Below, one piece after another: positions 29,731 through 61,064 of a DNA stretch of 64,000 nucleotides. Under the pieces are notes generated by a model that saw only the letters and a program-made list of their open reading frames with translations, ran no database searches and was not told the origin of the DNA. The translations under genes and the position numbers were made by a program. How positions within the stretch are numbered: position 1 is the stretch's first letter; every line of letters starts with the position of its first letter. Source of the DNA: Clytia hemisphaerica (lineage: Eukaryota; Cnidaria; Hydrozoa; Leptothecata; Clytiidae); contig CACVBU010000558.1 in assembly GCA_902728285.1 (NCBI GenBank), positions 250,561-314,560 on the forward strand, read 5' to 3'.

Positions 29731-32187
29731 TCAAACAGAGGTTTCATTATTGCCACCAGGTGAGATTCTCTCTTCATTGTTTTGTGTCATTGACTCTTCG
29801 ATGTCATTATCTTCAAAATGTCCTTGTTGTTCAAGAGCTTCCCAATAAGTTGGTGGATGGAGTAATTGATCGTAACCTGGCGGTTGGTCTATAGTAAAAA
29901 AAGTGATCATAATAGAAGTAAGTTTACGGTATTTTTATTGAAAACTATGACAGGGAGTAAAAGGTAAAAGTTGATCATAATTGAAGCAAAAGCCAATGGC
30001 ATTTCTATTGAATCTAAAGAATAGATTTAGATGCAAACTTTGTAGGTTTGTTGTCATGACTCAAATCATCTATGAGGATTCCACTACTGTTGAATTTAGG
30101 ATTCGTTAAAAGTTTAGTATTAAGAAGGGGCTGCATAAAGACTAGAATGTTATGAAATACGCATGGTTTGTCAATTGGCCAGAAAAAATAAAAGGACCCA
30201 GAAGCTGTCTCAGTGGATATTACTCTTAAATACCGTTATATCTTGGCGGTTGATCCTGTCTGTTATTGGCACCTCTTGTTGATGACGTCACAGGTGGGGA
30301 GACGGGTGCACTTGGAGAAGTAGAAGGGCGTGAGGGTGGAGCAGAAGGGTAAGAAAATGCAGGAGCATTAGGTCTGGTGGTTTGAGAAGTTCTAGGTGAT
30401 GTACTACTTGGTCTTGGATAATTATTTCTAGCAGCTTCACTTCTCATGTTGCTCCGTTCAGCTAAGGAAGGTTGTCTGTTAGAATGTCGCCAATTCAAAT
30501 CCGGTTCTTGTCCTCTACTGTATATTGGTCTACGTTCTTCTTCCTCTTCAGAATCATTTGTATGCATGGTACGATGGTTGCGAGCTGCTTCTCGCCTACG
30601 ATTACTAATCTCTAAGAAACGATCAGCTTCTGGACCCCCAATTCGTGGCTCCTCAAGTCTCTCGGCCCTATCATGCCAAGATCGGTCATCAAGGTCCTCA
30701 CCAAAGTTTCCCTTATAGAATTGACATATACAGGATCCAAGATCGATAGCTGATAATATTACTCCGATTGTGAAGAGAATAATACCGAAAATCTTGCAGT
30801 AGTAGACGTTGTTGCGATCATATTCTGTTACATATCTAGTAGTTTTAGGGAAGGGTGCTTGAAGGTGTAATGGAGTTTGGTTTAAGCCTTAGATTCATCA
30901 GATATTAATAAGCAGGTATTCAATAGGTAAAAGTTGGTTATTGAGATTTATTAACCCGAGGTGATGTAATATTCAACGAGGCGAAGCCAAATTGAATATT
31001 CATCACCGAGGGTTAATAAATTTAATAACCAACGTAAACCTATTGAATATATGTTTTATTATATGCCCAAAGACGAAAACAAGTTATAAGTTTCTATTTT
31101 GTAGAGAGATTCCGAGAGATTCACACAAAACTCTTACACAAATCGAACATTCGAATGTTTTTTCTTTTTAATTGCTTTTTAGATGACTTAAGTCATTTAA
31201 TTGTTCACGAAATTCACAATTGAACTCTTTTATTGTCTCTCTTTTAAATAGCAACAAAATAAAAGTGACAAAAAATCAAGTTTCGAAAAAAAGTTTGAAA
31301 ATAAAAATTCTACTGTGGTATAATACCGTGGTATATCAGGAATTATTCAATGGCTGTTTTCGCCTACCGGTATATAATAATAGCTTTTATGATATTACAC
31401 TGATTATAGTGTAACATCGGTTTAATTAGAGCAAAACAAGGTTATACAGTAAACTCTCACTTATTCGAACTTCTGTTATTAAAACTTCTTTCCAGTCCCC
31501 GTCAAGAAGAAACCTTCTTTAACTACACTTTAAATACTTTCTATAATTCGAACAAATCCCAGGGGGGGGGGGTACTTAGGCAAATGGAGGGTACGGTATG
31601 TGCCGCCCTTAAGGGTACCTTTTTAGTCCCGCTAAGGGTCGGAAAAATCAGAAAATCAAATTTCAGTCCCACTAAGGGTCGGAAAAATAGGAAAATTTCA
31701 ACTTTTTACCCCCTGAAAGATCGAAATTTGGTCAAAATTGGTCAAATTAGTCCTGCTAAGGGTCGTAAAATTCACAAAATTTTCCTTGGTTTTCTCTTTT
31801 TTAGTCCCGGTAAGGGTCCAAAGTTCGAAAGTCGGGCGGCACCCCCCGTCAGCTCGCAACCCTAGTACCCCCCCCCCGGGGGAACAAATCAGATTCCCTT
31901 TCCGTTCGAGTTCGAATTGGCGAGAGTAAACTGTATGAATGGGGAAGATTCTGAGGAGTGATGAAAAAATACAATATACGAACACAGTGATAATACGTTG
32001 GAAGATTTCACTCCCTACCCCAACTCATTTCGTAGAAGACATACCTTTCACATTCTTGTACTTCATCGTCACACTTTGGGTCCACTTTAAATTTGGTTGG
32101 TGGCGTTAAACCCACACCTAAAAGTGCACTTCCAGCCACAAGACAACAAAAACCTACTCCACATACATAACCATTCCATTTTCGCAT
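29731..32187 (-). CDS. two-TM PPxY membrane protein (3 exons)
   Basis: Exons 32045-32187, 30234-30835 and 29731-29888 join in frame to 300 residues. The donors are GAAAG|GTATGT and AACG|GTATTT; the acceptors are ACTAG and CTATAG. TM1 spans about residues 7-26 (VCGVGFCCLVAGSALLGVGL), followed by a short loop with two cysteines; TM2 is about 62-82 (IFGIILFTIGVILSAIDLGS). Then come a charged stretch with EADRFLEISNRRREAARNH, a P/S-rich tail with PPRY at the exon junction, and the last exon with PPGYDQLLHPPTYWEALE. Three PPxY motifs suggest strong WW-domain binding. I start at ATG 32185-32187 because MRKWNGYVCG aligns with CWNGWVCAFG of the 44.7-kb gene. Exon 1 is separated by a 1.2-kb intron full of MITEs. 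Location (plasma or vesicle membrane) and partners are inferred. Confidence 0.85.
30909..31056. mobile_element. fold-back MITE, copy of the 19737 element
   Basis: TAAGCAGGTATTCAATAGG at the left and CCTATTGAATATATG at the right bound arms with GTTGGTTATTGAGATTTATT and ACCCGAGGTGATGTAATATT, as in 19737-19869. The loop contains GAGGCGAAGCC. It lies in intron 1 of the 29.7-kb gene. Confidence 0.8.
31447..31933. mobile_element. pogo-like MITE, carrying a nested element
   Basis: CAGTAAACTCTCACTTATTC and the mirrored GAGAGTAAACTG are flanked by TA on both sides, with TTCGAAC inside both ends, as in Tc1/pogo-type elements. The G-run element at 31559-31882 is inserted within it. There is no transposase. 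Confidence 0.75.
31559..31882. mobile_element. G-run-ended element with CCCGCTAAGGGTC words, 8-bp TSD
   Basis: It runs from a G run plus TACTTAGG to CCTAGTACC plus a C run, with AACAAATC duplicated at 31551-31558 and 31883-31890. Inside, AGTCCCGCTAAGGGTC-like words occur about five times. It sits inside the pogo-like MITE, so it is the younger insertion. Confidence 0.85.
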
Positions 32188-32475
32188 CAGGAGAAACAAT
32201 CAATAATCGGCCTTATCTTCGTCTCATAAGTATTTTAGACTATTTAACGATTGACTTCACATTGTTTTTATTTTTATTTTTATTTGTTTCTTTCTGAAAT
32301 GGAAAACACGATATTATCAAATTGGACATATTGAGAGCTACGTGAGAAATCACCGAATTTACGGCACTTTTCCAAGCTAACTAAAAAGTTTCAAGTAATC
32401 ATTATTTTTGGTATTATTTCATAGAGATTACTATAGCAGGTAGGCCAGGGTCGAGTTCAAATTAGCCACTCACAT
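32188..32475. promoter_or_regulatory. presumed promoter/5' region of the 29.7-kb gene
   Basis: This AT-rich DNA lies directly upstream of the minus-strand start codon. No definite TATA or other element can be named; the call rests on position only. Confidence 0.25.
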
Positions 32476-32893
32476 CATGGCTCCGACTGGGGTTCTAGGT
32501 CCCCCCGCCAAATTTAGGTCCCCCCTGAGAACAAGGTCCCCCCAGCCTGATAAAATTTTAGGTCCCAGTATAGGGGGAAAATTTTATGTCATTCACAAAG
32601 CTCTATTTAAATATGTGTGCACTTTTAGAGAATGCAATAGAATGTCTTCTTCATTTTTGCATTGTAAGGATCAGATCACACTCTGCATGAAAACATAAAG
32701 GTTTAGAGAAATTAAAAACCAACAGTAAAGAAAAATATTTAGGAAGTGTTATTTAGCCCCCAGAGTTACATAAACTAATGCAGCCCCCCTCCCAAGATAG
32801 AGCTCCCCCCACCTATCGGGAAAAACAACCAGCTCCCACCTCCTATATGGCAAATTTTAGGTGTAGCTCCCCCCGCTCAGGCGTGCCAGCCAT
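32476..32893. mobile_element. repeat of AAATTTTAGGTCCCCCC words
   Basis: CATGGCT at the left and AGCCATG at the right, each next to CACAT, bound a stretch in which TTAGGTCCCCCC / AGCTCCCCCC words recur about eight times. It has the same word-array style as the other G/C-run elements and no coding sequence. Confidence 0.6.
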
Positions 32894-33178
32894 GCACATT
32901 TGTTCTTTAAACGATATTATAATAAAGTGTAATTAGTTTAAAGAATATAAAATATGTAAATTTCTGTCGTAATATCAAAAGTCGCGTCTTGTAAGAAAAC
33001 AATAGAACTTTCATGCGAAAAAAACATGTCATAATCCATTTTTATGAGATTTCAAATTTTCACATCTCAACTTCGAATCTCAGACAAAAAGATTCGGAGG
33101 TTTCGCTCATGATTATGAAAGGAACCTCAAGACAAAATATCTGAATCAATCTGATTATCCCTTCAAAGAGTGTTGCAA

Positions 33179-33586
33179 CTACCCTTAAGGAACTTATTTT
33201 GGCGATTGAAGAATTTTTTTAATTTTGCAGGAATAGACGATATTGGCTTAACATAAAAACTCAGATTTGATCCCCGAGGATTCCCCACAATGCTTTGTGC
33301 GGGAAAAAGTTCGCGGTGAAATATTTTCCGCGCAAAGCATTGTGGGGAATTCTCGGGGATCAAATCTGAGTTTTCATGTTAAGCCGATATCGTCTATTAA
33401 TTTTGACGAATGACAGCGTAAATCTGTACTATTTTGCCTTTTGAAGCTCTTTTGCGAACTCAAGAAGTTATTTAGGCAAAATACCAAAATATTTAATTTT
33501 GACGGAAACTAATTTTTGCGAATTTTGTCTAAACTCGCCAAATTCGCCAAAATTAGTTCCCGCCAAAATAAGTTCCCTTAAGGTAG
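33179..33586. mobile_element. TIR element, CTACCCTTAAGGAACTTATT family
   Basis: CTACCCTTAAGGAACTTATT at 33179 mirrors the sequence ending CCCTTAAGGTAG at 33586, with TTTTGGCG just inside both ends. Words AATTTTGCGAAT and GCCAAAATT recur inside. A separate palindrome is inserted at 33232-33398. Similar words occur at 25040-25330 and 41390-41705. Confidence 0.75.
33232..33398. mobile_element. 167-bp palindromic MITE nested in another element
   Basis: AATAGACGATATTGGCTTAA is mirrored by the sequence ending GATATCGTCTATT. The arms continue through TCAGATTTGATCCCCGAGGA and CCCCACAATGCTTTG, so almost the whole length can form one hairpin. Confidence 0.9.
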
Positions 33587-34401
33587 GTTTTAAGAATCGA
33601 GACTGAAATCACCTGACTAAAAACCCTCTTCAAGGAAAGACGGATATTGTGTATTTGAATCTCAATTGGACGGATTTTCATCTCCAGACGGACATTGTTA
33701 CCTGAAACATGGCCTACTGAGAATAAAGATTAATGAGATCTGTGACAATCGCAGGAAGGCTTATTTATGTCTCTTTTTATTGTTAAAATTATATAGAGCT
33801 TACATACCAAAATCGATTTATTTTGCAATTTTTTTATCACGTGATTAGGTAATAGACCAATCCCAAGAGGAGATTTTGGTAACGTGATCAAAAAGTATGC
33901 AAATCGCAACTTGTCTGTTGTTTGTAACAAAAAAAAATTAAAAAAATGCTAAAACGATACATTGCCAGACCGGGTTTTTTTATAATGACTATGAGATCAG
34001 TTTTTCAAGGCAAACTTAAAAATCATTAAAGCGCCGATAACGCTATATTGCCGTCAGCCGTATCCTGTCCGTAAAAAGACGGACATTATTACCTGAAACA
34101 TGGCCTACTGAAAATAAAGAATTTTTGAGATTTGTGACAATCACAGGCTGTCAGGGTATTACGTGCCCTTGTTTACACATGCAGCTAATATTATATCCTT
34201 GAAAGCCTATGTGAATTTTATAACAATGATACATATATGTTAAATAACTAGTGTATTGTCGACTTCTTTTTTCCCTCCACGATGAACTGGACGAATATAG
34301 TAAGGCATTGAGGATAGAACATATTAAAACGCATGATAAACCAGAATTGTATGTCAGAAAAATGTATAATGATATAAATATTAAAAACAGGGTATGATAA
34401 G
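33587..34401. other. mostly gene-free, with one short coding-like frame
   Basis: Two 40-bp similar stretches contain GACGGACATTGTTACCTGAA and GACGGACATTATTACCTGAA (about 33692 and 34079). At 34251-34396 a plus-strand frame after ACTAG encodes LHDELDEYSKALRIEHIKTH and ends at a stop within the target-duplication copy. It looks protein-like but is unassigned. Confidence 0.4.
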
Positions 34402-35430
34402 CTATGATAATGTATATGATAGGTATATGATAACCGAGGATACAACAAAAAGTTTGAACTTTCTAGACGTGAACGTTCGAAATAACAATGGCCGTTATGA
34501 ATTGAAAATCCACCGTAAAAATGCGATCACTAACGTGCAAGTTAAACCTAATTCAGCTCATGACCCAAAGGTGTTGAAGAGTATATTCTCTGGATTTCTT
34601 AATCGTGCGTACAGAATTTGTGATGACCGATTCCGTCAGGAAGAAATTGATTTCTTAATAAATAACTTTGTCGAGAACGGTTATGATCGTAACACTTTAA
34701 CCCGTATCGCAAACGATTACGACAGAACCAGGAACCAGACAACCGACAATCGAAATGATCCAGAGCAACTACCAATCGTTAAATTACCTTGGATACCTGG
34801 TCTGAGCCCAAAACTGAGGAAATCCTTCCGAAATGCTGGGTACAGAACAGTGTTCAAGAGTGGTTCAAATCTAAAAACTTTGCTAACTTCTAAGAACAAA
34901 AGCCGACTACCACCTAACAGTCACCCTGGTGTGTATATGATAGAATGCGAATGTGGTAAAAGATATGTTGGCGAGACCGGGTTAAAGATATCCACACGTG
35001 TCAGCCAACACAAAAAGAACGTTGAAGATGAAAAATGGGACATTTCGGGTATAACTAACCATGCTAAAGACTGTACCCAAGGACTTAATTGGAACGAAGC
35101 TAGGCTTTTAAAGACTGAAGAGAACAAATTTGATAGAAAAGTGCGAGAGGCATTGGAAATCCAATTCCGTCAGACGGCGCCACATAGTGACCATGGTCTT
35201 AATTTAGACGATGGTCAGTATGTGACATCTAGGTTTTGGAAGCCAATGCTCTCGCACATTAGGGAGAAGACACTACATTGACTTTTTTGACGTCAAAAAA
35301 AAAAAGTCAAGGTAGCGCCTTCAACCGTTTGTATTGTTTAGACCTGACGAAGACCTGCACCAAGCAGGTCGAAATATTGTTTACACGAAAAATATATACA
35401 GAATGACCATTAAAATGTTATTTAAATTAA
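34402..35430 (+). pseudogene. 5'-truncated Penelope-like element with GIY-YIG domain
   Basis: The open frame (first ATG 34394, stop after 35278) encodes the C-terminal part of a Penelope-like retroelement polyprotein. It begins with a piece after the reverse-transcriptase catalytic core (SLNFLDVNVRNNNGRYELKI), then a linker with LPWIPGLSPKLRKSFRNAGY, then a GIY-YIG endonuclease: GVYMIECECGKRYVGET with downstream R and a CCHH-like feature ITNHAKDC. The catalytic YxDD part is absent, so the copy is 5'-truncated and cannot move by itself. GGGTATGATAAG occurs exactly at 34390-34401 and 35431-35442 and may be the target-site duplication, which would put the true left border at 34402. The GIY-YIG frame is uninterrupted, suggesting a young copy. 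Confidence 0.85.
35341..35400 (+). ncRNA. hammerhead-like ribozyme motif in the PLE 3' end
   Basis: CTGACGA (35344-35350) fits the CUGANGA core. It is followed by a GACCTG/CAGGTC stem (35352-35357, 35365-35370) and then GAAA (35371-35374), the second core box. ATATT/AATAT could form stem III. Hammerhead ribozymes are known in Penelope-like elements. Stem I is not convincing and one A is unpaired before stem II, so activity is uncertain. Confidence 0.4.
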
Positions 35431-35442
35431 GGGTATGATAAG

Positions 35443-36798
35443 TATATATAATTAGATAGATTATAGATTATGGTGTGTTATATAATACATAGTTTACATA
35501 GGTTATAAAAAATTAAATTGGTTTAAAATAAACGGCTACAATTTGAATATAGACCACTTTTAGGACGCGATATCATTTGAATCTAAAATTTAGCGACAAT
35601 TGCCCAGTCTATGCGACCAATACAGATAAAAATTTAACCGCAAAGCAATTGATAAACTGACGCTAAGGTTATGTAATGTAAAGTCATAAAAATGATGTTT
35701 CGCCGTTAGTTTTTGGATATACAAAAAATATTTACAAGAATTGTTCTGTTATTGCTGAACTCTGTAGACCAATCTACTGTTAGACTTTGGAAAGAACGCA
35801 TGCGTACTCGCAGCTAATAATTGAACGGATCATGGGTTATCAGCTGTATCACATCAAGCCCTAAGTTTTAGAACTTTATGTGATTGGTTGAAGTAATTTA
35901 TTTTGGAAATTTTGAGCATGGATATCAAAGATATTTTCTTGAATACTGATCATAGGCGGTTTTAGACCATGTCAAACTTATCAGAGGAAAAGACTTGTAA
36001 CTGTTTATTTCATTATCTTTTAACGAGCTTGACGCGTTGCAATCCTTCGCATGTTTCCGACATACTTGCTCTATTGTCTTAAATCCGCCAGTGCATATAA
36101 TCCTTTGTCTTGAAAATGGTCTTTTCACAATCAGGGTGCTCGATACTGCAGCAGAGCAAATTACTTAAAAGAAACATAATTTTTCATTAACCAAGACCGC
36201 TGCATTTTCGCACATCATTGATGCAATTATCAGTTCGATTATTAGAAAAGTGAATTAGAAAAGTGAATATAGATTACGGTTAAAATTTGTACAATTATCT
36301 TATCGGGGAAAAAATCGTCGGGAAAAATTTTGATCGGGGAAAAATTCGTCACTTGCTGGTAGTTGGTAAACGCATTAAGGCCGGGGAAAAATTTTCGTCG
36401 CGGAAAATATTCGTCACTTGTCCAAAATTTCGTCACTTTTCCCCGACGAAGTTTTCCCCGATAAGGTATAGTGTCACAGTGCTCGAACTCAAGCCCCCAG
36501 AGGAAGGTTCCCTTTGTTTTGTAACAAGCTATACATGTGACAACTGAGGTGGTTTTTGATCTTCAAGACCTCATAGAATCAATGTTTGGCTTGGCATTTT
36601 ATAATTTCATGTACTTGGGTAACATTCTCCTTTGTCCTTTTGCCAGTTGTCTTCTAACAGTTATGTGTCCATTTCTTCTCTGTTATTATCTTCAAAAATG
36701 ATCTTGTTGACCATGGCTTGGCGTTCGGCCTTCATTTTTATATGATTTTATTCATTTAGGTAACATCGTCATTTATTTAGGTCATTAGCCAGCAGTCT
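35443..36798. other. intergenic region
   Basis: No gene is supported. It contains the MITE at 36296 and presumably the 3' UTR of the gene ending at 36799. The text around 36600-36790 repeats phrases such as TCATTTAGGTAACAT and ACAGTT(G/A)TGT(C/G)TCCAT, hinting at a local duplication of the 3' end of the gene. Confidence 0.4.
36296..36468. mobile_element. MITE, TA-CCTTATCGGGGAAAA family
   Basis: TATCTTATCGGGGAAAAAAT at the left mirrors the right end, TTTTCCCCGATAAGGTA. The words CGGGGAAAAATTCGTCAC recur inside in both orientations. The outermost CCTTATCGG is shared with the element at 38036. Confidence 0.8.
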
Positions 36799-37808
36799 TT
36801 AAACAGTTGTGTCTCCATCCTCATTTTCTTCTGTGTCGGCGCCTCCTTCATCAAAATGACCTTCAAGTTCAAGAGCTTCCCAATAAGTTGGTGGGTGGAG
36901 TAATTGATCGTAACCTGGCGGTTGGTCTATGGTAAAAATTGATAATAATTGAATTAAGTTTACGGTATTTTTATTGAAAACTATGACGTATTACATATAC
37001 TCCCATAATGAATATTTCAGCAATTTAGGGTCAACTGTCGATTTTTTAATCATAACGAACCAAGCCTATTTTGACTGAAGATCTTTTTTTAACTTTTTAA
37101 CTTATAAAATGGCTTCAGCTAAAAACTTATTATCAAGAAAATTTACTATGGTTCGTATTAAATTTTCTGATTATGTGACAAACTACTAAGTTTCTTACCA
37201 TTGTACAGTTGACCTGGCTGTACACGTCTTTCAGGAACACTCCCTCGGCCACCTGTCGCTTGAGGAGGCGCACTGGGTGTAGAGCTGCTAGGTAGTGGTG
37301 CTGATGGTGTCACCATGGGTGAACTAGAGCGTCGCTCATGATGGGAACTTGGTAATGATGTCTCATAGGCAGCTAATAGATCATCTAGTCTTTCTGTATT
37401 CGACGTTTCAAATGAACGATTTCTCTCTTCTTGACGGATGCGCTCTGAAGTTAGTCGGTTCAGTTCCCCGATCGATAGCTCATCATCGTCGTCGCCGTAA
37501 CTACAACATCCGTCGTCGCCACACTTAGTCACCCACATCACGATCGGGATAATCATGAGAACAAGACCAAGAATAAGAGAAATGGGACCGAAAACTTTAA
37601 AATATAATTTTTTCTCACCATCCCAACTTTTTTCCTTACCGATCTCACATTGAATCAAGTCCCAACCATATGGATCGTCGCAAAGATCACCTTTCTGATA
37701 TGTTTCCACTGGTTGACAACCAAGTCCAAGTAAAACAGCTCCAGTAATGAAAAAACAAATTCCCATGAAACATGTTTCGCATTTTTTTAATTTACAATAT
37801 TTTCCCAT
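36799..37808 (-). CDS. two-TM PPxY membrane protein (2 exons)
   Basis: Exon 37199-37808 and last exon 36799-36926 join through a phase-1 intron (AATG|GTAAGA, CATAG acceptor) to 245 residues. TM1 is about 12-31 (CFMGICFFITGAVLLGLG) and TM2 about 71-93 (VFGPISLILGLVLMIIPIVM). The loop between has spaced cysteines, and the tail begins with a CC-acidic patch and S/P-rich sequence. The last exon is QPPGYDQLLHPPTYWEALE followed by an acidic end, nearly identical to the 29.7-kb gene. Start ATG at 37806-37808. The PPGY and PPTY motifs should bind WW domains. The paralogous neighbours in the same orientation indicate tandem duplication. The exact function is unknown. Confidence 0.88.
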
Positions 37809-38591: not shown

Positions 38592-41500
38592 TCATAATCG
38601 CATAACATCGGCATAACTTGGGGGTGGATCTAAAAAGAAAAAAGATTGAGATAAAATCTAAGTAATGGTCATGTCTATGGAACAAACATCGTTGTCATTA
38701 CCTTAAAAAAAGTTTCAAGTTAGGAACTAGTGTATATGTATAAGAATTGCGAAGCGATCCAGGCAAGTCACTCGATTCGCAAGTTGCAAGCAAAATATTT
38801 ATAGGGTCACACACAAATTGCAAGTTAAAATAGATTGATAATCAATTCGTAAATGTAAACCCCGCGAAACCCCGACAACTGCTCAGGTTCAGGAAGACCG
38901 AGCCTCTTTAGAGATACACTCAAACACTTCAGGTGTACAAACTTACGACGTTTACTTCTACGGATTTGAGGAAAATTATATGATTTCTTTCATGAATCGT
39001 TGTGAAAAGTTCAATAATCATTTGTCCACCCTGAGCCTTGAGTATTTTTATTTCTTAGTTTTTGTTTTTTTAAACTCGTTTTACTTCCGGTTTCGAACTC
39101 CTTGCGTTCAAAATCGAACTTTCGAATCTTTCTAATTTTTAATTTCGAACGTTCGAATAAAAATAACATTCGAAAACTTTTTACCTAACATAAACACCCC
39201 TGTGTCATAGACCCGCTGGAAAACTTGGCAAAAATTTCGTCCCTGGAGGGAAAATACCTCTCTAGCCTCTTCAAAAGGTCTTCCTTTCAAAGAGCCCTGA
39301 GAATTAAAAAAAGTCGCTCGGTTTATTGAGACAGAGATGTGAAATACAGAGGATTTCAAGACTAGAATTTAATAGAAATAAGTTGTCTTATGTAGTTTAA
39401 AAATTCAATAACCATATTAATTAGGAATATTGTATCATTGCATCGTAAATTCTGAAAAATTTAACAAAGTTCTAAAATTATATCTAAACTATTAGCGCTG
39501 TAAAATCCTGAGATAAAAATAAAGAAAAACCAGATAAAAAAACTGACATGGTACTTTAATCGTAGAAATTTTAGCGAGACTAATTTTAGCGTTTTAGCGA
39601 GTTTTCCCTATTTTCGCTAAAATTAATCTCGCTAAAACACGCCGAATCGACAGATCGCTAAAATTTATCCGCGCTAAATTTTTCCAAAACACTATTCGCT
39701 AAAATAAATCCAGTTTTTTTCTTCTTTTTTTTCTTCTTTTTTGTTCACCAAAATACATCTCAAAAAGTTATTTGGAAATGGCGATTCGCTAAAATTAATC
39801 CACGCGAAATTTTCTCAGACAAGTATTCGCTAAAATTTATCCACGCGAAATTTTTTGAAATCGTGATTCGCTAAAATAAATCCAAAAAAAATCAAGATTT
39901 TCCTGACTCGCTAATATACGCTAAAATTACTCTCGCTAAAATTTCTACGATTAAAGTAAGTAAAACCTTTTACTGGCTGTGATTTTTTTCAAAGTTGGGA
40001 AACTCTTAGCTTAAGTTTGCTGTGGAGGCAAGTACAGTACTTGACAGACTTTTACCCTCTTACTCGAGTTGTTGACAAACAGGAGCAAACTCTTCACATA
40101 AAAAGTAAAAAATCGGTGACTTTTTTCTCGGCTGTAGCATACAGGAATTTAAAACAGTTAAAATGCACCCATAAACATAATATGTCATGTTTTGTCGTTG
40201 TATTTCGACATTTTACAAGTCATTACCATTAATTACCATCACCAACAATAAAATCTTTTAATACAATCACATGTCAATGTTCTATTTCTCTGACCATCGA
40301 TGCGTATTCCCAGTATTCATAAACAACAAACAACAACCAAAGATCCCACATCATCGAGGGTCGGTCAAGCCAAAATTTCATAAACAACGACAAACAAACA
40401 TTTCTCCTTCCACTGGATAAGGCCATAAGGGGCGGAATAAATTCTTCCAGGTTAGCCATATCCAAAAGCGCAAAATATTTTTGTTCCTATCAATTCAAAA
40501 TATACAAAAAGTCCAGCACTTCAACATACTACCAAGATTCAATCTAAACCAAAAGCCAAAAGGAATGGCTTTCCCACCATATGTATACAGTTCATTTCTT
40601 CAGCTTTTAGATCCTCTTCTTGCAATGAAGCAACAACTCTGTTGAGCCTTGCCTGTCGATGAAAGAATAAAAATTCCATCTTCTTTTTTCTCATTCCGCA
40701 AGTTCAGCTGCTTTCTTCGTTTCTTTTCATCAAGCATCATCTCTTTTCAAAACACCAATTTCTCTTTTCAAAACAATGTTGTTTTTAGTCAACATTCGAA
40801 TTTGGAAAAGTTCGAAAGCCCTTCGAAAGTCTTTGCTCGAGTCAATGCAATGACTTCTTGAAAAATGAGCGCCATTTAAACGCTTCTTGAACGCTTCCAG
40901 CCCGCGCTGATTTTCCGACCTCTTCTTCAGATTTCCTAATTTAAACCTTAAGGAGATAAAAACAAGGTTTATCTAGTACCGGTAACCGGGTGTATTACCT
41001 CCGTAGCTTTTAAGAATTGGTATATCTAAACGCACGAGGCGACACTTTTTGAAAAAAACGAATTTAACCATCCGTAATTCCAGGTCTCTCCGCCGCGATT
41101 CTAGGTTTGATCTAAGGAAGGGCGGACGGCTTTCTCAATCATTTCTGCGTTTGAAAGATTGGATATATATAGTGATTTTTCATTTGCGCTCCCCAGCGTA
41201 GGTGAGATTTAAAGGTACATATACACGATAGCAAAACTGCTTCGCTCATGTATATTCGCTTCGCAAAAAAGGATAATCTTTTCTTCAAACTAAATTTTAT
41301 ATCAAATTCATTTTCCAGTATACTACTCTCAAGAACGGGATATAATAGCCATTTCAAATACATACAGCTGTAATCTTACTAAATTAAGGTCGACCTTATT
41401 TTGGCAAGAACAATTGTTGGTGAGCAGCGAAAATATTGAAGATTTTTAATGTGGGTGAGAACTTATTTTAGTGAATGGGCAAACATTTTAATTTTGACGA

Positions 41501-43136
41501 GAACTAATTTCGGCGAATGACACTCGAAATCTGTCCTCTTTCTCCTTAATTTGAACAATTTTGATGAAATTTAGGGGTTATTTAGACAAAATGCAAACAA
41601 ACAAAAAAGATTTTGGCGAGAAGCAATATATGTATTTTGGCGAGAACTAATATATGTATTTTGGCGAGAACTAATATATGTATTTTGGCGAGAAGCAATA
41701 TATGTATACCAAAAGGGAACACAATTTACGTTTGTGGGTGTGTTCTGGGAATACCAAAACGCCAAAATAATACAATTTCTATCAAAAGTCTGTGTTAAAG
41801 CCTTATAAAAAGAAATGGATTCCGGCAAGATGTAGGTACTAACCACACTCTTCAAAGTTCTTTTAAGGTGTACATGTCTAAGTTTTTTTTTTTGTTTTAA
41901 ACCTTAAAATGTCCTTAGCATGGTCTTATTTTCCCCATTTTCTCCATTTTTCTAGATAATCGGGTGTTTCAGGGTCTGCAAGGCTTAGATGTTCATAACT
42001 TGTTCTTAATATTTTGGCTATCGAAGCCTTATTTTCTTATATAAACTATATTAAAAAACGTTTACAGTCTTTAATAGTAAGTGGAAGCCGGTGCGAATTT
42101 TTATGTATAAGAGGCCCCCCCAGCGGTAAGTCTGATCGCGCAACGATATCACGCAATCTTTTGTCTTCAATCACGATGACAAAAATCAGCAAAAAAATTG
42201 GATAATCACGCATCCCTTTGAAAAAGTCCAAATTACGCATCACGGCTCAAAAATCTTTCAAATCACGCTTTGACCTCTGATCACGCAATCACGAAGAAAA
42301 AATTTCCAAATCACGTAATCACGCAAGAAAAAGGTCCCTATCACGTCTTTACGAAAACCACTTGAGGGCCTCATAAGGTAGATTACTGCTTGCATTGAGT
42401 GTAAATCGTTGCTTAACAGCAAGAAAGCTGTAAGTCAATTCTTTTTTGTAAAAAAGCAGTATCTCTTGTCAAAGGCTGTCATTATGAACTTACTTCAAAA
42501 CCAAATTTTTCCCCAAACACAATGGAATCAAAAATGTGAAGAAAGAAAGCTCTATGTCAAAATATTTTTGGATTTTGCTGAATTTTGCCTAGGATTGATA
42601 AGCCTGTCAATAGATGTTCGAAAAATATTTGAATCAAAAGAGCTGCAAGTCATTTTTCTAAAATAAAGTTTTTTCTCTAGGTTTTATATCGAATCAAGAA
42701 AAATTGACTTCAGGTTTCCTTGCTTTTAAGCGAAAAAAATTCAATGTTGAAATACTTGCTGAGGCTAGCAATGATTTTGTGCACCACGCGAAAAGAAACT
42801 TATCTGACCTTCATCCCTGGTATTTATTTCTCCAGCTAAAGGTTGTTCAATTTCGGTTGCTTCAATATCATCACCTTTGCATTTACCATTGCACCAAAGA
42901 CAAAGATCAATCGAAACCAATAATAAACCAATAGTAAGTAAAACAATTCCAGATAACTTTAACGCTTTAGTTTCTTCAATCCAGTCTTGTGGTATAATGA
43001 CTTTCCCGTCTTCATCATACTCCATAGCTTTACGACTATAAGTTCGATTACTGAAACCTAAACATAGTCCACCGGTAAGGACAAAAAATATTAAACCACA
43101 TAGGCAAGCACATCCACAATAATTGGAATTAGTCAT
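38592..43136 (-). CDS. short two-TM PPxY membrane protein (2 exons, long intron)
   Basis: The first exon (42809-43136) gives TM1 at about 9-28 (CACLCGLIFFVLTGGLCLGF), a short charged loop, TM2 at about 61-81 (LSGIVLLTIGLLLVSIDLCL) and a short tail with a cysteine cluster. Its GAAG|GTCAGA site is a phase-1 donor. The last exon proposed is 38592-38629, after CTTTTTAG, encoding DPPPSYADVMRL and stop. The fit in phase and the PPSY motif support the pairing, but the 4.2-kb intron makes it tentative; I saw no other candidate last exon between. The predicted protein is only 121 residues, the shortest family member. The intron is filled with MITEs (39192, 39554, 41609, 42111). Confidence 0.65.
39192..39265. 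mobile_element. fragment of ACACCCCTGT repeat family
   Basis: AACACCCCTGTGTCATAGAC, then CCGCTGGAAAACTTGGCAAAA, matches the right end of the 57232 element read in reverse. Only this end is preserved. Confidence 0.6.
39554..39956. mobile_element. TIR element, CTTTAATCGTAGAAATTTTA family
   Basis: CTTTAATCGTAGAAATTTTA is mirrored by TAAAATTTCTACGATTAAAG, with TA on both outer sides. ATTCGCTAAAATAAATCC and ACGCGAAATTTT words fill the interior in both orientations. It has no coding sequence. The TA duplication is compatible with Tc1/mariner-type mobilisation. Confidence 0.85.
41390..41705. repeat. TTTGGCGAGAA repeat with four 24-bp tandem units
   Basis: At 41609-41704 ATTTTGGCGAGAACTAATAT plus ATGT repeats four times (two units with GAAGC for GAACT). 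Upstream, ACTTATTTTAGTGAATGGG and GAACTAATTTCGGCGAAT are diverged forms of the same word, linking the array to the element family at 33179. Confidence 0.8.
42111..42372. mobile_element. repeat of AATCACGCA words with GAGGCCC ends
   Basis: GAGGCCCCCC at the left mirrors GAGGGCCTC at the right. AATCACGCA / ATCACG words occur more than ten times between. No coding sequence and no certain target duplication is present. Confidence 0.6.
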
Positions 43137-44693: not shown

Positions 44694-46023
44694 TTATGGT
44701 CGAGACGTTGAACTTCCTGATTGCATAACTTCAAAATATGAAGGCGGTGCATCTAAAAATCAAAACGGAAGAAATCAAGATATCGAAAACAAGAAGAAGA
44801 GTAGACAATTATGCATGGTATAATATTATTTTAGTGGTATCATGGCTGTTTCCTTATACATCAAATGGCTCATGAGTCAAGGTAAAGATTACGTCATCAA
44901 ACAATATAAACTTGTTTTTTAGTACCTATACAGAAAATGATTGAAATCCCGATTCTATTACTATCTTGACTCAATTATAATAGGCCAAAAGGCTGCCACG
45001 GTCAATTTACCGGCCACTTCGATGCGTCCGGTCCTAGACCGACCCTTGATCGACCGGTCGACATCCTTTTATAACAGTTTGTTTGATATAATTGTTACTA
45101 ACCAACACTAACGAGCACTAACTGGTCTGACGTACGCACTGACCTTTATATATCCATGGAACAAGCTATATCCGCCATCTTTGATCGAAGTTTTTTTGGA
45201 ATTGGTACCCGCCATTGTAGTGTTTGAAACTTTGCCTAACGACAAACGGCGCTACATAATTTTTAGTGTACAAGCGAGACTAGATCTAGCGCTCTCTCTC
45301 CGCGGGTATCAATTTCATAAAAACTACGATCATAATATTATTTTGCTTGACCGACATTGAGTCCAGGGATATATAAAGGTCAGTGAACGTACGTACGTAC
45401 CAAGACCGTTCCGATTTTCAGGTACTTTATATCGCTTGGAAGTCACATTTATTACCTGATAAAAGTTGTCCCTGGTTTTCGTTGCTAGATCTAACTGGAT
45501 ATCCTGGCGAATGATTGCTTTTAGACTGTGGTAGATTTACAGTCATAGGATGGTTTGGAGAGACAGAATTATGTTGCTGATCACTGCGATCTGGGAAAAT
45601 CAAGTTCAATTCATAGTCACCAGAGAGTCTCCTATTGTTACTCTCCTCCTCCCTGACAGACGAGGTCTGCGTTAGAGGATCTTGGTATTCAACTTCACTA
45701 TCACCTGAGGAAGAGGTGTTTCCATTTAAACACTGCAGGACGCAAGAACTTATATCTACCACTGCTATTATTGACCCAATTACGAGTAATATTAGTCCGA
45801 TCGTAATTTCTCGGCGCTTGTCTTCTTTAATGTGATCTGGTGTACGGTATTGACAAGTGATTGAATGATCATCAATGCATTCAGGATTTATCATGTATTT
45901 ATATGTCCTATATTTGTTACTGATTTCACCATTACCAATTATCAAAAAAACTCCACCCACAATAATGAAAACAAAACCGAATGCACAAACCCAGCCATTC
46001 CAACAGTGTTTCATGCAATCCAT
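44694..46023 (-). CDS. two-TM PPxY membrane protein (2 exons)
   Basis: Exons 45456-46023 and 44694-44752 join by a phase-1 intron (ATCAG|GTAATA donor, TTTTTAG acceptor) into 208 residues. TM1 is about 11-30 (WVCAFGFVFIIVGGVFLIIG). A loop follows with two spaced cysteines (PEC, TCQYR). TM2 is about 72-95 (EITIGLILLVIGSIIAVVDI). The tail is S/N-rich and the last exon encodes DAPPSYFEVMQSGSSTSRP with a single PPSY. ATG is at 46021-46023. CWNGWVCAFGF aligns with KWNGYVCGVGF of the 29.7-kb gene, and PPSYFEVM resembles PPSYADVM of the 38.6-kb exon, so these three form a subgroup. The intron carries a MITE at 45129. Confidence 0.88.
45129..45396. mobile_element. MITE with CGTACG...CTGACCTTTATATATCC ends
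   Basis: CACTGACCTTTATATATCC near the left is mirrored by GGATATATAAAGGTCAGTG near the right, with GTACG-rich outer flanks. It lies inside the intron of the 44.7-kb gene. Confidence 0.8.
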
Positions 46024-47970: not shown

Positions 47971-49082
47971 TTACGATGGAGGCACGGATGAAGTGTCAGG
48001 TGAAAAAGCTTCGTTATAAGATGGCGGTGGTGGCATATCTAAAAGAAAGAAGAAAAAGTCATCATTATTATATTAGCCTTTACCATCTTCACACCCACAT
48101 GTGATTTTGTATTTAAGAAAATCTTGCTCGCGTCATCTTTTCAGTAGCCCGGGGTCCAGTCCTAAGACTCTTTGATAGACTGGGTGGCGCGATTACTTCA
48201 TTAGACTATGCTTTATCCAAAAGTTTAGGTTAAGCCAGTAGTGTCAATCTAAGAAAAGTTTCGCACTATGAACAGGAAAAGCAGTTATGAAGATATGAGA
48301 GAGGAAATATTATCTGAAACTAATTATAAATCGATTGTAGTCAAATCTATAGGGGCAAAATTTGAGTAATCAACTCTGAAAACTTTGAATAATATTCAAA
48401 ATTAAATTTTACTCAGTTTTACTCTGTCTAAACTGTCCAAACAAGACAGAAACGAATCTCAAATACCTGTTTTCTCGGGAAGAGGTGCAGCCTGTTGTGA
48501 TAGAGGTACGCCTCCTTGCGGTGGATAGGAGGCTGTTTGTGGTGGTGGGTAGGGCTGCCCCGCAGGTGGTGGATAGGGCTGCCCTGCAGGTGGAGGATAA
48601 GGTTGGGTACCGCCTGCTGCTAATGGCGGCGGTGGGTATTGTTGACCGGCTGGTGGTGGGTATGGTTGTCCTGCAGGTGGAGGATACTGTTCACCTACAG
48701 GTGATGGATAGGTAGGTGGTGGTGGGTAGCTACCAGGTTGCTGTGGAGGGTAGCTACCAGGCTGCTGCGGAGGGTATCCAATCGTTGCTGGTTGGGTCGG
48801 TGCTGGGTAAGAAGCATTTGATGTCTGGTTAATGGTGACACCTCCGGTAGCTTGGTAACTAGCGTTACCGCCCATCATCATCATGGCTTGTTGCTGCTTA
48901 CGTCGGATGATACAAACAGTGGCAATCATTACTACAGCAGTGACCAAGAGGAATGGACCAAAAACTCTCAATACAGATACTTCAGCTGTGCTGCCCACAC
49001 TTGTCATTATGAAACCGATGAAAATGCAAACAATTGCACCGATAAACATTGTAGTATAGCATCTCTGATTCTCGAAACCCAT
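47971..49082 (-). CDS. two-TM proline-rich PPxY membrane protein (2 exons)
   Basis: Exons 48467-49082 and 47971-48038 join through a phase-1 intron (ACAG|GTATTT, CTTTTAG) to 227 residues. TM1 is about 10-29 (TTMFIGAIVCIFIGFIMTSV) and TM2 about 38-59 (LRVFGPFLLVTAVVMIATVC). The loop between is only about 8 residues and lacks the WCxxC found in relatives. The tail is a YPPP/AGQP repeat (GQPYPPPAGQQYPPPPLAAG and similar), low-complexity and likely disordered. The last exon is DMPPPPSYNEAFSPDTSSV and ends PPS. PPSYNEA matches the 60.1-kb gene. ATG is at 49080-49082. It is likely a membrane anchor for WW- or SH3-domain partners. Confidence 0.88.
48149..48205. repeat. short copy of the 21777 repeat
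   Basis: CCCGGGGTCCAGTC and GATAGACTGGGTGGCGCGAT match the two ends of the repeat at 21777-22070 with the middle missing. It is located in the intron of the 48-kb gene. Confidence 0.5.
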
Positions 49083-53595: not shown

Positions 53596-54813
53596 ATGCA
53601 ACCGTTTAAGGAACAACGACGTACCATTACCGATCCACGAGGCTGGCGTCGTGACGTCAAATGTCTCCTGAAACTGTTCAGTGTTTTTCTCTTCATATCC
53701 GGCTTCGTGTTGACAATCTACGGAAACATTCATAAACCATTCCACCGTGAAGCAACCAACTGGTGCAAACACTGCATAGAGGATCTCGAACAAGAACGTA
53801 AAATCATGTCATTGGCTAAGATTATTGGACCAATCATATTAACTTTAGGTGTTATTTTGACAATACTTACTTGTAGGTATTCAAAATGGCTGACAGAGAA
53901 AAAAGAGGAATTTAAGACTACCAAAGATATTCAAAGCCGCTTGCAACGCATCATGGAAGGCAGTAGTAGTAGCGGGAACAGTAAACCAACCACCACCTCT
54001 GCAAGCAATTCTAGTATAGCAGGAAAAGCTATCACTGTCGAAATTGATATCGCACCACCAGCACAAACTGTGACCATGACTAAATCATTAAAGCTGAAAA
54101 AATCTTCCTCGCAGAAAACAGTTACTCTTCAGAATAAAGACATGAAAAATGTGATATCTCACGACCAAACAGATGAAAAAGCTTCAATGTGCGAAGATGA
54201 ATTCCCGGCGATAAGTTTAACTAAAAATCATAATTATAGTGGCAGTATAACCGATGAAAACGATGGTAATACGGAACAACAGACCTGTAAATCAGATATG
54301 GTTACACAAGTTCATGAAAACCTTGGTTATAAAGCTTCTCTCGGTGGTAATAGCGAGTTTGGTAATTTCATGCAAGCAACAGTGATCGAAATACCAAGTA
54401 TAGAAGCTTCAGTAAATGACATTGACGATTCTAGCTCTAACAGAAATGATATGAGTGAATTATGTGCAGGCTCATCGCATAATGAAAAAAATTTTTCTCA
54501 AGAAGTCTCTAAAGATAATGTGAGCGCAATGGATAGTGGACTAGATACCTCGGAAAGAGGAGCGTGTGTTTCTAATGATAAAGTAGAACTTTTACACAAT
54601 GGACTAAGTATTTGTAAAGTTAATGAAGAAAGCGGTTCCGAGAGTATTGATAATGTTTCATGTAGAGAAAATTTAGTTGGGAAAACACTTTCCAGGCATA
54701 ATTCAATTGTAAAAAACGGAATGGATGAAGTATCATTTGATTGTCAAACCTCATCTAAGAACCTAACGAAAAATTGTATTGGTAGATTTGAAGTAACTGT
54801 AATTAATACATAA
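53596..54813 (+). CDS. two-TM membrane protein, intronless plus-strand member
   Basis: This single 405-codon exon starts MQPFKEQRRT. TM1 is about 24-43 (LLKLFSVFLFISGFVLTIYG), followed by NIHKPF, then WCKHC, and TM2 about 75-94 (KIIGPIILTLGVILTILTC). The FVLTIYGNIHKPF, W-C-x2-C and IIGPI blocks align directly with the 60.1-kb gene, so it belongs to this family. The tail of 300 residues is S/N/E/D-rich and unlike the proline-rich tails. It lacks the terminal PPxY exon. It is the only family member on the plus strand and the only one without an intron in the coding region, so it may be an inverted duplicate with a replaced tail, or derive from a retrocopy. Function unknown. Confidence 0.88.
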   Translation: MQPFKEQRRTITDPRGWRRDVKCLLKLFSVFLFISGFVLTIYGNIHKPFHREATNWCKHCIEDLEQERKIMSLAKIIGPIILTLGVILTILTCRYSKWLTEKKEEFKTTKDIQSRLQRIMEGSSSSGNSKPTTTSASNSSIAGKAITVEIDIAPPAQTVTMTKSLKLKKSSSQKTVTLQNKDMKNVISHDQTDEKASMCEDEFPAISLTKNHNYSGSITDENDGNTEQQTCKSDMVTQVHENLGYKASLGGNSEFGNFMQATVIEIPSIEASVNDIDDSSSNRNDMSELCAGSSHNEKNFSQEVSKDNVSAMDSGLDTSERGACVSNDKVELLHNGLSICKVNEESGSESIDNVSCRENLVGKTLSRHNSIVKNGMDEVSFDCQTSSKNLTKNCIGRFEVTVINT

Positions 54814-56963: not shown

Positions 56964-58155
56964 TTATTTTGCACCAGAAATTTCGCTGTATGCTGGAGGT
57001 GGTAAGGTATTAGCCATGCCTGAAATAGATAGAAAAAAATAAAAGAATTCTTTTTTCCTACTTAAAATAATTATAACAAAATTTCCAATGAGAATATTAA
57101 GATATTGTTTATCAGCCTTTGTTGCTACCTTTTAGTCAGTCAACATTAGACAAACTGTTACAATAGAAAACATGTGTCCACTGGTTGCAATCATGCAACT
57201 GTACAGACGTTTCAAACAAGCTAGCCATATCTACACCCCTGTCTTACAGCCCTGGTGGAACTTTTTTCTCAGTTGGGATAAAAATTCCTATTGAAATCCC
57301 AAATGGGATAGAAATTCCTTAGTTCCAAGGTTAAAAGATTTAGTGGCAATGGTTTTGAAGTGCAATTTTTAACATTGAATTTCGAATGGGGATGAAATAA
57401 AAGTTAATTTCCAAGTGGGGCTGAAATTCTAAGGTATTTTCGCCACAGGGACGAAATTTTTGTCAATCTTTCCAATGGGGCTGGGCACCCAGCGGGTCTG
57501 TGACACAGGGGTATATATTTGGATACTAGTGTGAGAGTTAAGAATTACCAACTTCCCAGATCAAGGGTATTACCACCAAACTACTAAAGAATATGAACTT
57601 ATTACCTAGAACAGTTGCATTTTGCTGATAGTTAGGATGTTGCGTTGGTGTTTGCTGTTGAAGAGGATATTGGTGTGGTGGGGGAGGATACTGTCCTGGA
57701 GGTGGGGAAGGGTACTGTCCTGGTGGCAGGTAGGCTCCAGCTGGGTAGTAGCCTGGTTGCGTTGTAGGTGGAGGATACCCAGACTGTTGTGGGTAGTTAC
57801 CTCCTGGTATGGAAGGGTAGGAAGCTGGCGGCGCAGTGGCTCCAATTTGCTGCTGTTGAACTACAGCATAGGTCTGTTGCTGTCGTGAATGATAGTCTTG
57901 TAATGGAAGCAGTCTACGCTTGTAATACCAAAAGGCTGCTGCTGTAAATACAACACCAAATACAAGAAGTATAGGTCCCCAAGATTTTAATTGACTTAAC
58001 AGAACAGTCTCATCCAGATTACAAAACCATTCACAGTCAGGGTCTTTTGTAGGTTCATGAATAAAGCCATACATTGTCATTATAAAGCCAGAAACAATAC
58101 ACACACAAGCAGAGAAACATAGTAGATAATATCTGGTTTTAGTTGATAAGCCCAT
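56964..58155 (-). CDS. two-TM proline-rich PPxY membrane protein (2 exons)
   Basis: Exons 57606-58155 and 56964-57019 join by a phase-1 intron (CTAG|GTAATA, TTTCAG) to 201 residues. TM1 is about 9-30 (YYLLCFSACVCIVSGFIMTM) ending in MYGFIHEP. The ectodomain has CEWFC, and TM2 is about 59-77 (WGPILLVFGVVFTAAAFWYY). The tail is rich in glutamine and then in YPPP/PGQYP repeats. The last exon encodes MANTLPPPAYSEISGAK with PPAY. ATG is at 58153-58155. It is the closest relative of the 60.1-kb gene in ectodomain and TM sequence. A repeat element (57232-57515) occupies most of the intron. Confidence 0.88.
57232..57515. mobile_element. 284-bp element, TACACCCCTGT...CAGACCC ends
   Basis: TACACCCCTGTCTTACAGCC at the left mirrors GGGTCTGTGACACAGGGGTA at the right. 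AATGGGGATGAAAT and AAATGGGATAGAAATTCC words fill the inside. It is the best-preserved copy of the family seen at 20044, 21344, 24470 and 39192. Confidence 0.85.
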
Positions 58156-60091
58156 TTAGGTTTTCAAGTTTACAAGCTAAATTGTATGTAGTTTCAGTTG
58201 ATTAAATAGTTTTTAATTTTTTTGCAAGTTAATTCCTAAAATGATAAAAACAATTTATGCTTTTTCATGTTACAAAAATAAGCCTCAAAAGTTACAAAGG
58301 TTTCAATTATCAAATAACGAAGACATAAAAAACTGAATGAGTATAAACAAGAGTTTACAAACAGACGTCAGTAGATATAACTCTGAGGTTTTATGAAGTT
58401 CTCTTTTCTAAGATAGATGTAATATTATTCACCGCATGTTTGACTTTAAACCAAAAGGGGGAAATATGGTTTTTATATAGAGTAAGACGTTTTAACTAAC
58501 TGAGAACTGTTCATTTCTTTGAAAATTCTATTAAGTTGAAAAAGAGACCAAAAAACACTTTAGTGTTAGTGTATAGTAAGCCATTTTATATGAATAATGC
58601 ATGAAGCCAAACTGAATATGGAAGTCTCTTCCCTTATTTTGCTGACATTGTAAAAGCTGATCAATCATAATATCATACAATTTAAAATTCAAAAAAACTA
58701 CATGCATGTATCTAAAAATGGCAATCAAAATTAAAAATGGACTTTATAGGGCTCTGATATTCCACTTTATTTACGTCTAACTGGTTGGTAAAAGTATCAC
58801 CTAATAGGTTACTGAATGGACTTTGAGAAGGCTTGAAAGATTGAAACGAATTACCATACAAAAGCTCTTTAAGAAAGATAAAGAAAAAATAAAGCCAATT
58901 TATTATGAGCTTGTGTATCAAGATGTTCTTCCTACAATTTTAATGACCAACAACCCCCACCTCAAAAAACTTGGTTTAACAAGAAAGTGCAAAGTGGATT
59001 TGATTTTAGAGGCTGATTCACATCCCTTGTGACAAAATAATTCAGAGGATTGCTTGCAACCTAATTTCAGCACTACTTGTAGAAATTATACTTTTGAACA
59101 GTTTGATTGATTGTTGGGTTTTTTTTTGGCTTATTTACATTTTAATATTAGGCGAGGCCAATTTAATTAGTTGTTTTACAGGCCAAGCTACCCAAAAAGG
59201 AGGGTCAGTCGATCGGCGAGAAAATAAGGATAAAAGTAGAATTTCATCTTTAAAATCTCCTAAAAAGGCAACAAAAACTGCTACATCTTAACAAAATTGC
59301 AAAATAAAAGATAAAAAGGCACAAAAAGCTCGAATTCATGGATAAAATCAAAAATTAAACAAAACTACCAAAATTTTGAAAATTTGGCAGTCTGTATAAG
59401 CAATGAAAATACAAATGTATCACCAAAACCAATTTTATTTTTATTCAATTTTCGGAATTTCAGGGTCGGTCGGGCCCGTAAAACAACTAATCAAATTAGT
59501 TTCACCTTATAAAGATTGTACAAGATGCCCCAAGACTAATAATACTATAAAAGTAAGGTAAAAAAGAAAAACACCAAAAAAAATAATGATCATGCATACC
59601 AAAAGTTTAAAACAAGTTTCCTGGAGAAAGGTGTCTGTAAAAATCTTATGTATAAAAATAATTTCTAAACTAACAAAAGAAAACATAATTTCCATGTCCT
59701 CCAACATTTTGCATGATTGCATGAATGGACTATGCATAAATTGAAAAGCTTCCCATGAACAGAATTTTCGTGAATTTTGAAAAAGATTTTGTGAATGCAG
59801 GAATTTAGAAAAAAAATTGCGCGATTGCCCGAATTGAAAGTCTGCTGTATATCAAAATTACAATCAAAGTACAAAATAAAAGAAAAAAGATTATTGAAAG
59901 ACATAAGGAGTTTATTAATAGGCTCCTTTTACACACATCAATTTTTCAGCATTTTTTTTAATCTCTATCAAATGAAGCAAAATTTTATGTTAATAGATCT
60001 AATAAACCATTGGACATAATTATTATAGCTTATGAAAGATTTTTTAGTGTTTTAATGACGAAAAAATTGATTTTGCCAAAATCAACACGTT
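58156..60091. other. intergenic region
   Basis: No gene is established. A minus-strand frame at 58712-58860 ends FSNLLGDTFTNQLDVNKVE and further residues before a stop; it looks mildly protein-like but has no splice partner I can show. One TIR element is present at 59155. Confidence 0.4.
59155..59502. mobile_element. TIR element, AATTAGTTGTTTTACAGGCC family
   Basis: TTTAATTAGTTGTTTTACAG is mirrored by CGTAAAACAACTAATCAAAT, giving an inverted repeat of about 25 bp. The 300-bp centre repeats CAAAAT and AAAAGGC words without coding capacity. Confidence 0.75.
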
Positions 60092-61064
60092 TTACGATGG
60101 CGGTGCTGATGGCATTGTAGCCTCATTGTACGAGGGTGGCGCTGGATAATCTGAAAATAAAGATATCGTAGAAATAATAAGGAAAAAAACACACGAGGAC
60201 CAAAATTGCTGATTCAACCTAATATATTCCTTCAAAAACTGTTTTGAATTTTGTGTTTTCAAATTAAAATTCTATGTGAAATGTAGAAATTACATTTTGG
60301 AGATACCAATTCTATTCTAAACAAAAGACTTGCAAAAAGCCATCATACAAATAATAATAGACAGAGACAGAAGGTTATCCAAAAGTGTGAAAAAGGTAAA
60401 GTTAAATCAATACTATTATTCTCAGTAACTTACCAGATTTAGCTGGGATTGGAGCAGCTTGTTGTTGTGGGTATGCTCCACTTGGTGGTGGATAAGGAGT
60501 ACCTTGTGGACCAGCTTGAGGAGGTGGGTACGGGGTAGGTCCCACAGGATATTGAGTTTGTGCAGCAGGATATGGCTGAGCTTGGGAAGGATATGGCTGA
60601 GCTTGGGAAGGATAAGTCTGTTGTTGAGGTGGATACTGTTGTGGTGGGTATTGCTGTGGTGGATACGTGTTGTTTGTTGGCTGGTAAGCAGGTGGCTGTT
60701 GGTAGGGAGGTTGACCTGGTGCTGATTCTCCTACTGATGAATATCCAACTACAGCACCTCCATGTGAAGCTGTTGCATTTATACCTTGATTCACATGGCT
60801 CTTTATCTGAGATCGCCGATAAAATACAGCCACAATTATCACAACTATTCCCAAACAAAGAAAGATTGGTCCAACAATTCTAGTATTTTTTATATTTTGT
60901 CGGTCTCTCTCATTATCATCATTACAAAAATCACACCATGATTCCGAGCTATTTGACCAAAAAGGTTTGTGAAGATAACCATACATGGTCATTACAAAAC
61001 CAATGAAAACAATCACTATTCCCAAAGCAAGAAAACAACCAAATTTGGCTTTTGTTCCAGCCAT
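60092..61064 (-). CDS. two-TM proline-rich PPxY membrane protein (2 exons)
   Basis: Exons 60434-61064 and 60092-60150 join by a phase-1 intron (TCTG|GTAAGT, TTTTCAG) into 229 residues. TM1 is about 9-30 (GCFLALGIVIVFIGFVMTMY) followed by GYLHKPF. The ectodomain has SWCDFC, and TM2 is about 63-82 (IVGPIFLCLGIVVIIVAVFY). A proline/glutamine tail with YPPQQ and YPSQAQP repeats follows, and the last exon gives DYPAPPSYNEATMPSAPPS. PPSYNEA is identical to the 48-kb gene. I start at ATG 61062-61064 (MAGTKAK). It is probably a membrane adaptor recruiting WW-domain proteins; the family is otherwise unnamed here. Confidence 0.9.

Follow-up and report, generated by a model that had tools for sequence, protein, structure and literature searches.

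A tandem array of genes for putative two-pass membrane adaptors with a PPxY motif on a phase-1 last exon in Clytia hemisphaerica

We analysed a 64-kb stretch of DNA from the hydrozoan Clytia hemisphaerica (contig CACVBU010000558.1, positions 250,561 to 314,560; 35% G+C), hereafter the window, which looks eukaryotic because it holds spliced genes and an open reading frame (ORF) with a THAP domain. Its main feature is a tandem array at 29731–61064, where seven spliced genes were modelled on the minus strand (G1–G5, G7 and G8), each encoding a hairpin of two transmembrane (TM) segments and a tail, with a phase-1 intron (G|GT) ahead of a short last exon that carries a PPxY motif. The motif and the gene structure are real at the sequence level, and the junctions of all gene models represent predicted splicing. 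G1 (29731–32187; exons 32187–32045, 30835–30234 and 29888–29731) encodes 300 amino acids with two TM segments, as does G2 (36799–37808; exons 37808–37199 and 36926–36799) with 245. G3 (38592–43136; exons 43136–42809 and 38629–38592) encodes 121 amino acids with a short tail and the end PPSYADVMRL, and G4 (44694–46023; exons 46023–45456 and 44752–44694) 208 amino acids with a tail rich in Ser and Asn (S/N-rich) and PPSYFEV. G5 (47971–49082; exons 49082–48467 and 48038–47971; 227 amino acids) has a very short loop, PYPPPAGQ repeats and PPSYNEA, G7 (56964–58155; exons 58155–57606 and 57019–56964; 201 amino acids) has a P/Y-rich tail with PPAYSEI, and G8 (60092–61064; exons 61064–60434 and 60150–60092; 229 amino acids) combines YPPQQ repeats with the C-terminal end PPSYNEATMPSAPPS.

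The codon ahead of the last exon is split in phase 1 in all seven genes, with its first base before the GT and the other two after the AG of the acceptor. It encodes Asp in six of the seven and Gly in G7 (Asp also in a partial copy, G0, described below), which bears out the first-pass annotation, where seven spliced two-TM genes with such a last exon and a split codon usually giving Asp had been proposed. The eight donors match CAG|GTAAGT at 5–8 of 9 positions, the last introns span 272–4179 nt, and G1 carries an additional phase-2 intron of 1209 nt inside the TM loop. Since G3 has both the longest last intron (4179 nt) and three possible in-frame phase-1 donors, with intron starts at 42808 (the model used), 42886 and 42874 (alternative exon ends 42887 or 42875 for the latter two), its exact junction is uncertain. 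Read without splicing, each frame meets a stop 2–22 residues past the donor.

PPxY occurs in every last exon of the spliced genes, and we compared the frequency of such exons with chance by scanning both strands for phase-1 acceptors that have a pyrimidine tract and lead into an open frame, with PPxY inside 12 codons and a stop inside 80. We found 15 instances of this pattern, which occupy 12 distinct places; eight of these places are the last exons of G0–G5, G7 and G8 (for G8 the reported acceptor is an in-exon AG nine bases past that of the model), while the other four lie at 224 (+), 32803 (+), 62846 (−) and 6497 (−). Dinucleotide shuffles of the window gave far fewer instances (mean 0.715, maximum 3), and none of the 200 reached eight or more. 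One profile, built from the very exons that it then recovers, finds all eight last exons at E ≤ 3.9e-5, with the next ORF at E = 0.12. The tails vary in composition (proline 22–30% in G5, G7 and G8; S+N 30% in G4), which agrees with the earlier description of variable tails joined to a conserved last exon. The ends of the last introns of G1 (29889–29951) and G2 (36927–36987) appear nearly as conserved as the exon, with a 142-nt block at 91% identity, and this conserved intron end points to recent duplication or gene conversion.

Kyte-Doolittle analysis detected two hydrophobic regions in all eight TM proteins, i.e., the seven above and the intronless G6 described below, overlapping segments having been merged by eye in G5, G6 and G7. 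Pairwise phmmer comparison of the TM regions, with E-values that refer to a set of 8 sequences, separated clade A (G1–G4) from clade B (G5–G8), with links across the clades that are individually weak. The claim that the TM parts are related had been set in advance as a test, and the profile comparison upheld it: the hairpin profiles of the two clades align at an hhalign E of 1.3e-06, and the scripted hhalign score of 41.7 was reached by none of 150 controls on either side, in which alignment columns were shuffled within the N-terminus, TM1, loop, TM2 and C-terminus (mean 16.6, sd 4.5, maximum 33.6, and mean 16.7, sd 4.0, maximum 31.2, respectively). Because the cross-clade score beats all of these segment-shuffled controls, the hairpins of clades A and B are very probably homologous. 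For the TM regions, the five pairs tried gave a synonymous divergence (dS) that either exceeded 1 or was undefined. AlphaFold2, given the aligned TM regions of seven members (all but G1), predicted that G8 forms a helical hairpin (mean pLDDT 74.6, pTM 0.54).

The loop between the TM segments is 7–45 residues long and contains exactly two cysteines in six of the eight proteins (none in G3 and G5), which suggests a lumenal disulphide; the TM limits behind these loop and flank counts were drawn by eye. Clade B has basic residues after TM2, two of those in G8 falling inside the end of the TM span under the by-eye limit. Short motifs were counted in nine tails (G0–G8) against the expectation from 2000 residue shuffles. 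The tails contain 15 PPxY motifs where 3.0 were expected; those followed by an acidic residue at Y+1 or Y+2 number 13 (0.20 expected), and P(S/T)AP motifs number five (0.51 expected). None of the 2000 shuffles reached the observed count in any of the three cases, while YPxL, YxxPhi and dileucine motifs showed no enrichment in the same tails. The P(S/T)AP motifs, of the type bound by TSG101, are distributed over three of the nine tails (two PSAP each in G1 and G2, one motif in G8). G1 has three PPxY motifs across the exon junction, arranged as PPRY-NDQ-PPGY-DQLLH-PPTY with PPRY on exon 2, and G2 has two, both in the last exon; the dual form PPGY-DQLLH-PPxY, with five residues between the motifs, is common to G1, G2 and G0.

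The eighth hairpin gene, G6 (53596–54813), lies on the opposite (plus) strand between G5 and G7, and its single-exon model of 405 amino acids combines a clade B hairpin, for which G8 is the nearest relative, with an S/N-rich tail without PPxY. A PPxY at 57573 (+), antisense to G7 and followed by a stop, was considered as the missing exon of G6 and rejected, since the exon scan shows no phase-1 acceptor for it; no other PPxY was found downstream of G6 on the plus strand in the PPxY listing of the window. An in-frame G|GT near the end of G6 makes splicing to an unrecognised exon possible. The partial copy G0 (13827–15208, minus strand) consists of a tail exon (start uncertain, running to 14477) and a dual-PPxY last exon (14023–13827). 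Its tail resembles that of G1 weakly (E = 0.00047 for a comparison among 8 tails), and its last exon is 79% identical to that of G1 and 77% to that of G2 at the nucleotide level over 26 codons, with dN/dS values of 0.15/0.72 and 0.14/1.31, respectively, over the same codons; it is thus apparently under purifying selection. With three TM profiles and all 2126 six-frame ORFs of at least 20 amino acids, no TM exon for G0 was found in the window. The partial copy that the first-pass annotation had placed at 13.8 kb therefore stands for its G1-like tail and PPxY exon, and not for the two membrane segments. A 92-nt duplication, 95% identical (15176–15267 and 15682–15772), is found at the G0 tail-exon start and upstream of it, and may be the mark of a rearrangement that removed a TM exon. 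At the left edge, 224–294 (+) is a candidate last exon of a further gene beyond the window, with a phase-1 acceptor and the end PPPNYEDAAKI before the stop; its match to the last-exon profile is not significant (E = 0.12).

To place the proteins among known families, ten ORFs (the eight TM genes, G1 via exon 2 only, and two pieces of G0) were searched against Pfam, with hits listed at E ≤ 1, a range in which the HMMER filters drop most matches above E 0.1. No family exceeded its curated cut-off for any of the ten, nor did any among the matches listed for the G8 TM region, and TMEM51, Shisa, LITAF, Pmp3 and TMEM55 were absent among the matches listed for the eight TM-gene ORFs. TMEM51, for which Pfam presumably includes a model, has two TM segments plus PPxY and so is like the array proteins in layout, and the results agree with its earlier description as an architectural analogy only; a search of open-licence papers found none linking TMEM51 with PPxY. 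The best weak match of the G8 TM region was Neurensin/TMEM74 (PF14927; E = 6.1e-05, 23.2 bits, below the gathering cut-off of 27.7), found in one of seven members tested, among the matches listed (for the six members other than G8, the 25 commonest of 40 families). Further weak matches of this region were DUF2371 (E = 0.019), TMEM100 (0.1) and TMEM171 (0.73), and TMEM100 weakly matches G5 as well (E = 0.0012, below the curated cut-off). Neurensin/TMEM74, TMEM200 (DUF2371), TMEM100 and TMEM171 are all two-TM families. The same region is matched at similar strength by the bacterial DUF3098 (1.7e-04) and by Oxidored_q3 (2.4e-04). None of ten segment-shuffled copies of G8 matched Neurensin at E ≤ 0.1, and their best match to any family was E = 0.0022, so that shuffling makes the matches somewhat poorer; a distant link of the G8 hairpin to Neurensin or other animal hairpin families is therefore possible. 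An assignment to Neurensin was dropped, since the match is below the cut-off, confined to one of the seven members and similar in strength to those of DUF3098 and Oxidored_q3. NDFIP/NEDD4_Bsd2 (PF10176) was rejected likewise (G8: 13.8 bits, E = 0.069, gathering cut-off 24.7), as that family has three TM segments and the array proteins two.

A sequence-profile search of the PDB gave a receptor as its best match (E = 0.071), and of the 93 Foldseek matches at E ≤ 10 none reached E ≤ 0.001, those listed (50) being assorted helical proteins. One scan of viral contigs with clade B produced 44 pattern matches, none of which was confirmed as a relative. In the available portions of the open-licence papers listed for such an expanded or tandem family, we found no description of one. 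Going by these Pfam, structure and literature comparisons, the array represents a family without a name whose functional kind is known, probably that of the transmembrane PY-motif adaptors of NEDD4-type ligases, which have a membrane anchor plus a tail PPxY. Seven of the eight TM proteins have such a tail (G6 does not), its cytosolic side being predicted.

Several membrane proteins work with the same motif, and they are compared here from the portions of the cited papers available to us. The lysosomal protein TMEM55B has two TM segments, a cytosolic PPXY that binds NEDD4, and a P(S/T)AP that is needed together with PPXY for ESCRT recruitment (PMC10761734). It recruits NEDD4-like ligases and ESCRT, and is like the array proteins in its TM segments and PPxY and like some of them in its P(S/T)AP; its PPxY lies in an N-terminal domain, whereas that of the array is C-terminal. 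Yeast Sna3p resembles them in being small, with two TM segments and a C-terminal PPAY, which is required for binding to the NEDD4-type ligase Rsp5p and for endosomal sorting, but its family is described as plant and fungal (PMC2171029) and Pmp3/SNA, as said, was not among the Pfam matches. In CYYR1 and the STMC6 family, the PPxY tail is anchored in the membrane and acts on WW-HECT ligases (PMC11399591). These STMC6/Shisa-like proteins (CYYR1, WBP1, VOPP1, WBP1L and TMEM92) have one TM segment, in CYYR1 preceded by a Cys-rich domain, in contrast to the TM hairpin of the array with its short loop and zero or two cysteines. LITAF/SIMPLE carries PPXY motifs and has NEDD4, Itch and TSG101 as partners (PMC3033906), but its motifs are N-terminal and its LITAF (SIMPLE-like) domain, missing from the array matches, is C-terminal.

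Taken together, we consider it probable that the array encodes two-pass membrane adaptors, that these bring in WW-HECT ligases of the NEDD4 type and, for some members, also TSG101, and that they resemble TMEM55B, Sna3p or LITAF in their working. The proposal in the first-pass annotation of membrane adaptors for WW-domain proteins fits these precedents, together with CYYR1, on the basis of the motif. The hairpin would set the protein in the membrane. The N-terminus and tail are predicted to lie on the cytosolic side, and the short loop, which in most members has one cysteine pair, on the lumenal or extracellular side. PPxY from the phase-1 last exon would dock the WW domains of NEDD4-type HECT ubiquitin ligases, whilst the P(S/T)AP motifs of three members could engage TSG101/ESCRT-I. 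The protein, and probably its membrane partners, would then be ubiquitinated and sorted through the endosome, and the variable tail would set the specificity for partner or compartment. Topology, splicing, WW binding, TSG101 binding and the sorting function are all predicted from sequence. More speculatively, and in our estimate improbably, the last exon may be kept as a plug-in connector to ligase and ESCRT (phase 1, PPxY, sometimes PSAP) while the tails diversify, in which case retention of the last intron, adding 2–22 residues before a stop, or loss of the exon, as in G6, would yield ligase-free decoys from one locus, and the splicing of one exon would switch endosomal sorting on or off.

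Several observations count against adaptors of this kind. G6 retains the hairpin without PPxY, which means that the motif is not essential to every member, and P(S/T)AP is missing from six of the nine tails. Clade A is net acidic over the 15 residues after TM2, where clade B has basic residues, so the positive-inside argument is not uniform and the topology is only a prediction. The dN/dS values of 0.076/0.18 between the last exons of G1 and G2 say little on selection, because they cover 26 codons, next to which the intron end looks about equally similar. WW proteins other than ligases, such as YAP, KIBRA and WWOX, use PPxY as well.

The last point leads to an unlikely alternative, in which the partners of the tail are tandem-WW scaffolds or proteins of the Hippo type (YAP, KIBRA, MAGI) in place of a ligase and the PPxY pairs of G1, G2 and G0, with the extra PPRY three residues upstream in G1, are bivalent ligands. 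For short-linker PY pairs, modest synergy with YAP-type WW tandems has been reported, but the strongest mode requires exactly two residues between the motifs (PMC6744271, available portions), and the spacing of five or three found here weakens this alternative, although the modest YAP-type mode may still apply. Moreover, the last exon contains just one PPxY in G3, G4, G5, G7 and G8, which make up five of the seven spliced genes, and the membrane anchor and the P(S/T)AP of some members are closer to ligase/ESCRT adaptors. We also doubt that the proteins serve chiefly as cargo or as structural proteins of the membrane, ubiquitinated via PPxY for turnover and without an adaptor role, the hairpin or tail having another function. 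Sna3p itself was reported as sorted cargo with an adaptor role left open (PMC2171029), and the widely differing tails and the lack of PPxY in G6 would suit such proteins; on the other side, the PPxY exon is kept while the tail diverges, which suggests that PPxY is central to function, and TMEM55B works as an adaptor with the same motif set (PMC10761734). It is very improbable that unrelated hydrophobic ORFs merely lie beside chance PPxY ORFs. TM segments are readily matched by chance and the unspliced frames stop shortly past the donor, but this explanation runs against the excess of PPxY exons over shuffles, the relation of the hairpin profiles under segment-preserving controls, the phase shared by all seven genes and the related last exons of G0, G1 and G2.

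Elsewhere in the window, three related long ORFs on the minus strand (17813–19003, 22180–23286 and 25348–26577) are coiled-coil-like by eye and have an N-terminal NAHSxR...NAAG stretch in common; none has a Pfam match above cut-off (TSC22 at E = 0.0074 for one). Between G1 and G2, an open frame at 34385–35281 (+) without a Pfam match at E ≤ 0.01 includes a terminal stretch ECGKRYVGETG, which we take to be GIY-YIG-like, and is perhaps a mobile-element remnant. The THAP-domain ORF lies at 11484–11831 (−; Pfam E = 2.3e-11), and Rfam, at its gathering thresholds, matches a single feature of the window, a tRNA-Asp (GTC) gene at 2260–2331 (+). An imperfect-repeat array, open in several frames, occupies 7392–8327, and a perfect 107-nt inverted repeat is found at 4025–4131 and 4653–4759.

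A system of this kind is already known, which limits the surprise of the array. Membrane PY adaptors help to choose the membrane-protein targets of NEDD4-type ligases, and a docking motif on its own exon combined with a variable tail would offer a natural series for the evolution of adaptor specificity, with G6 as the motif-free comparison.

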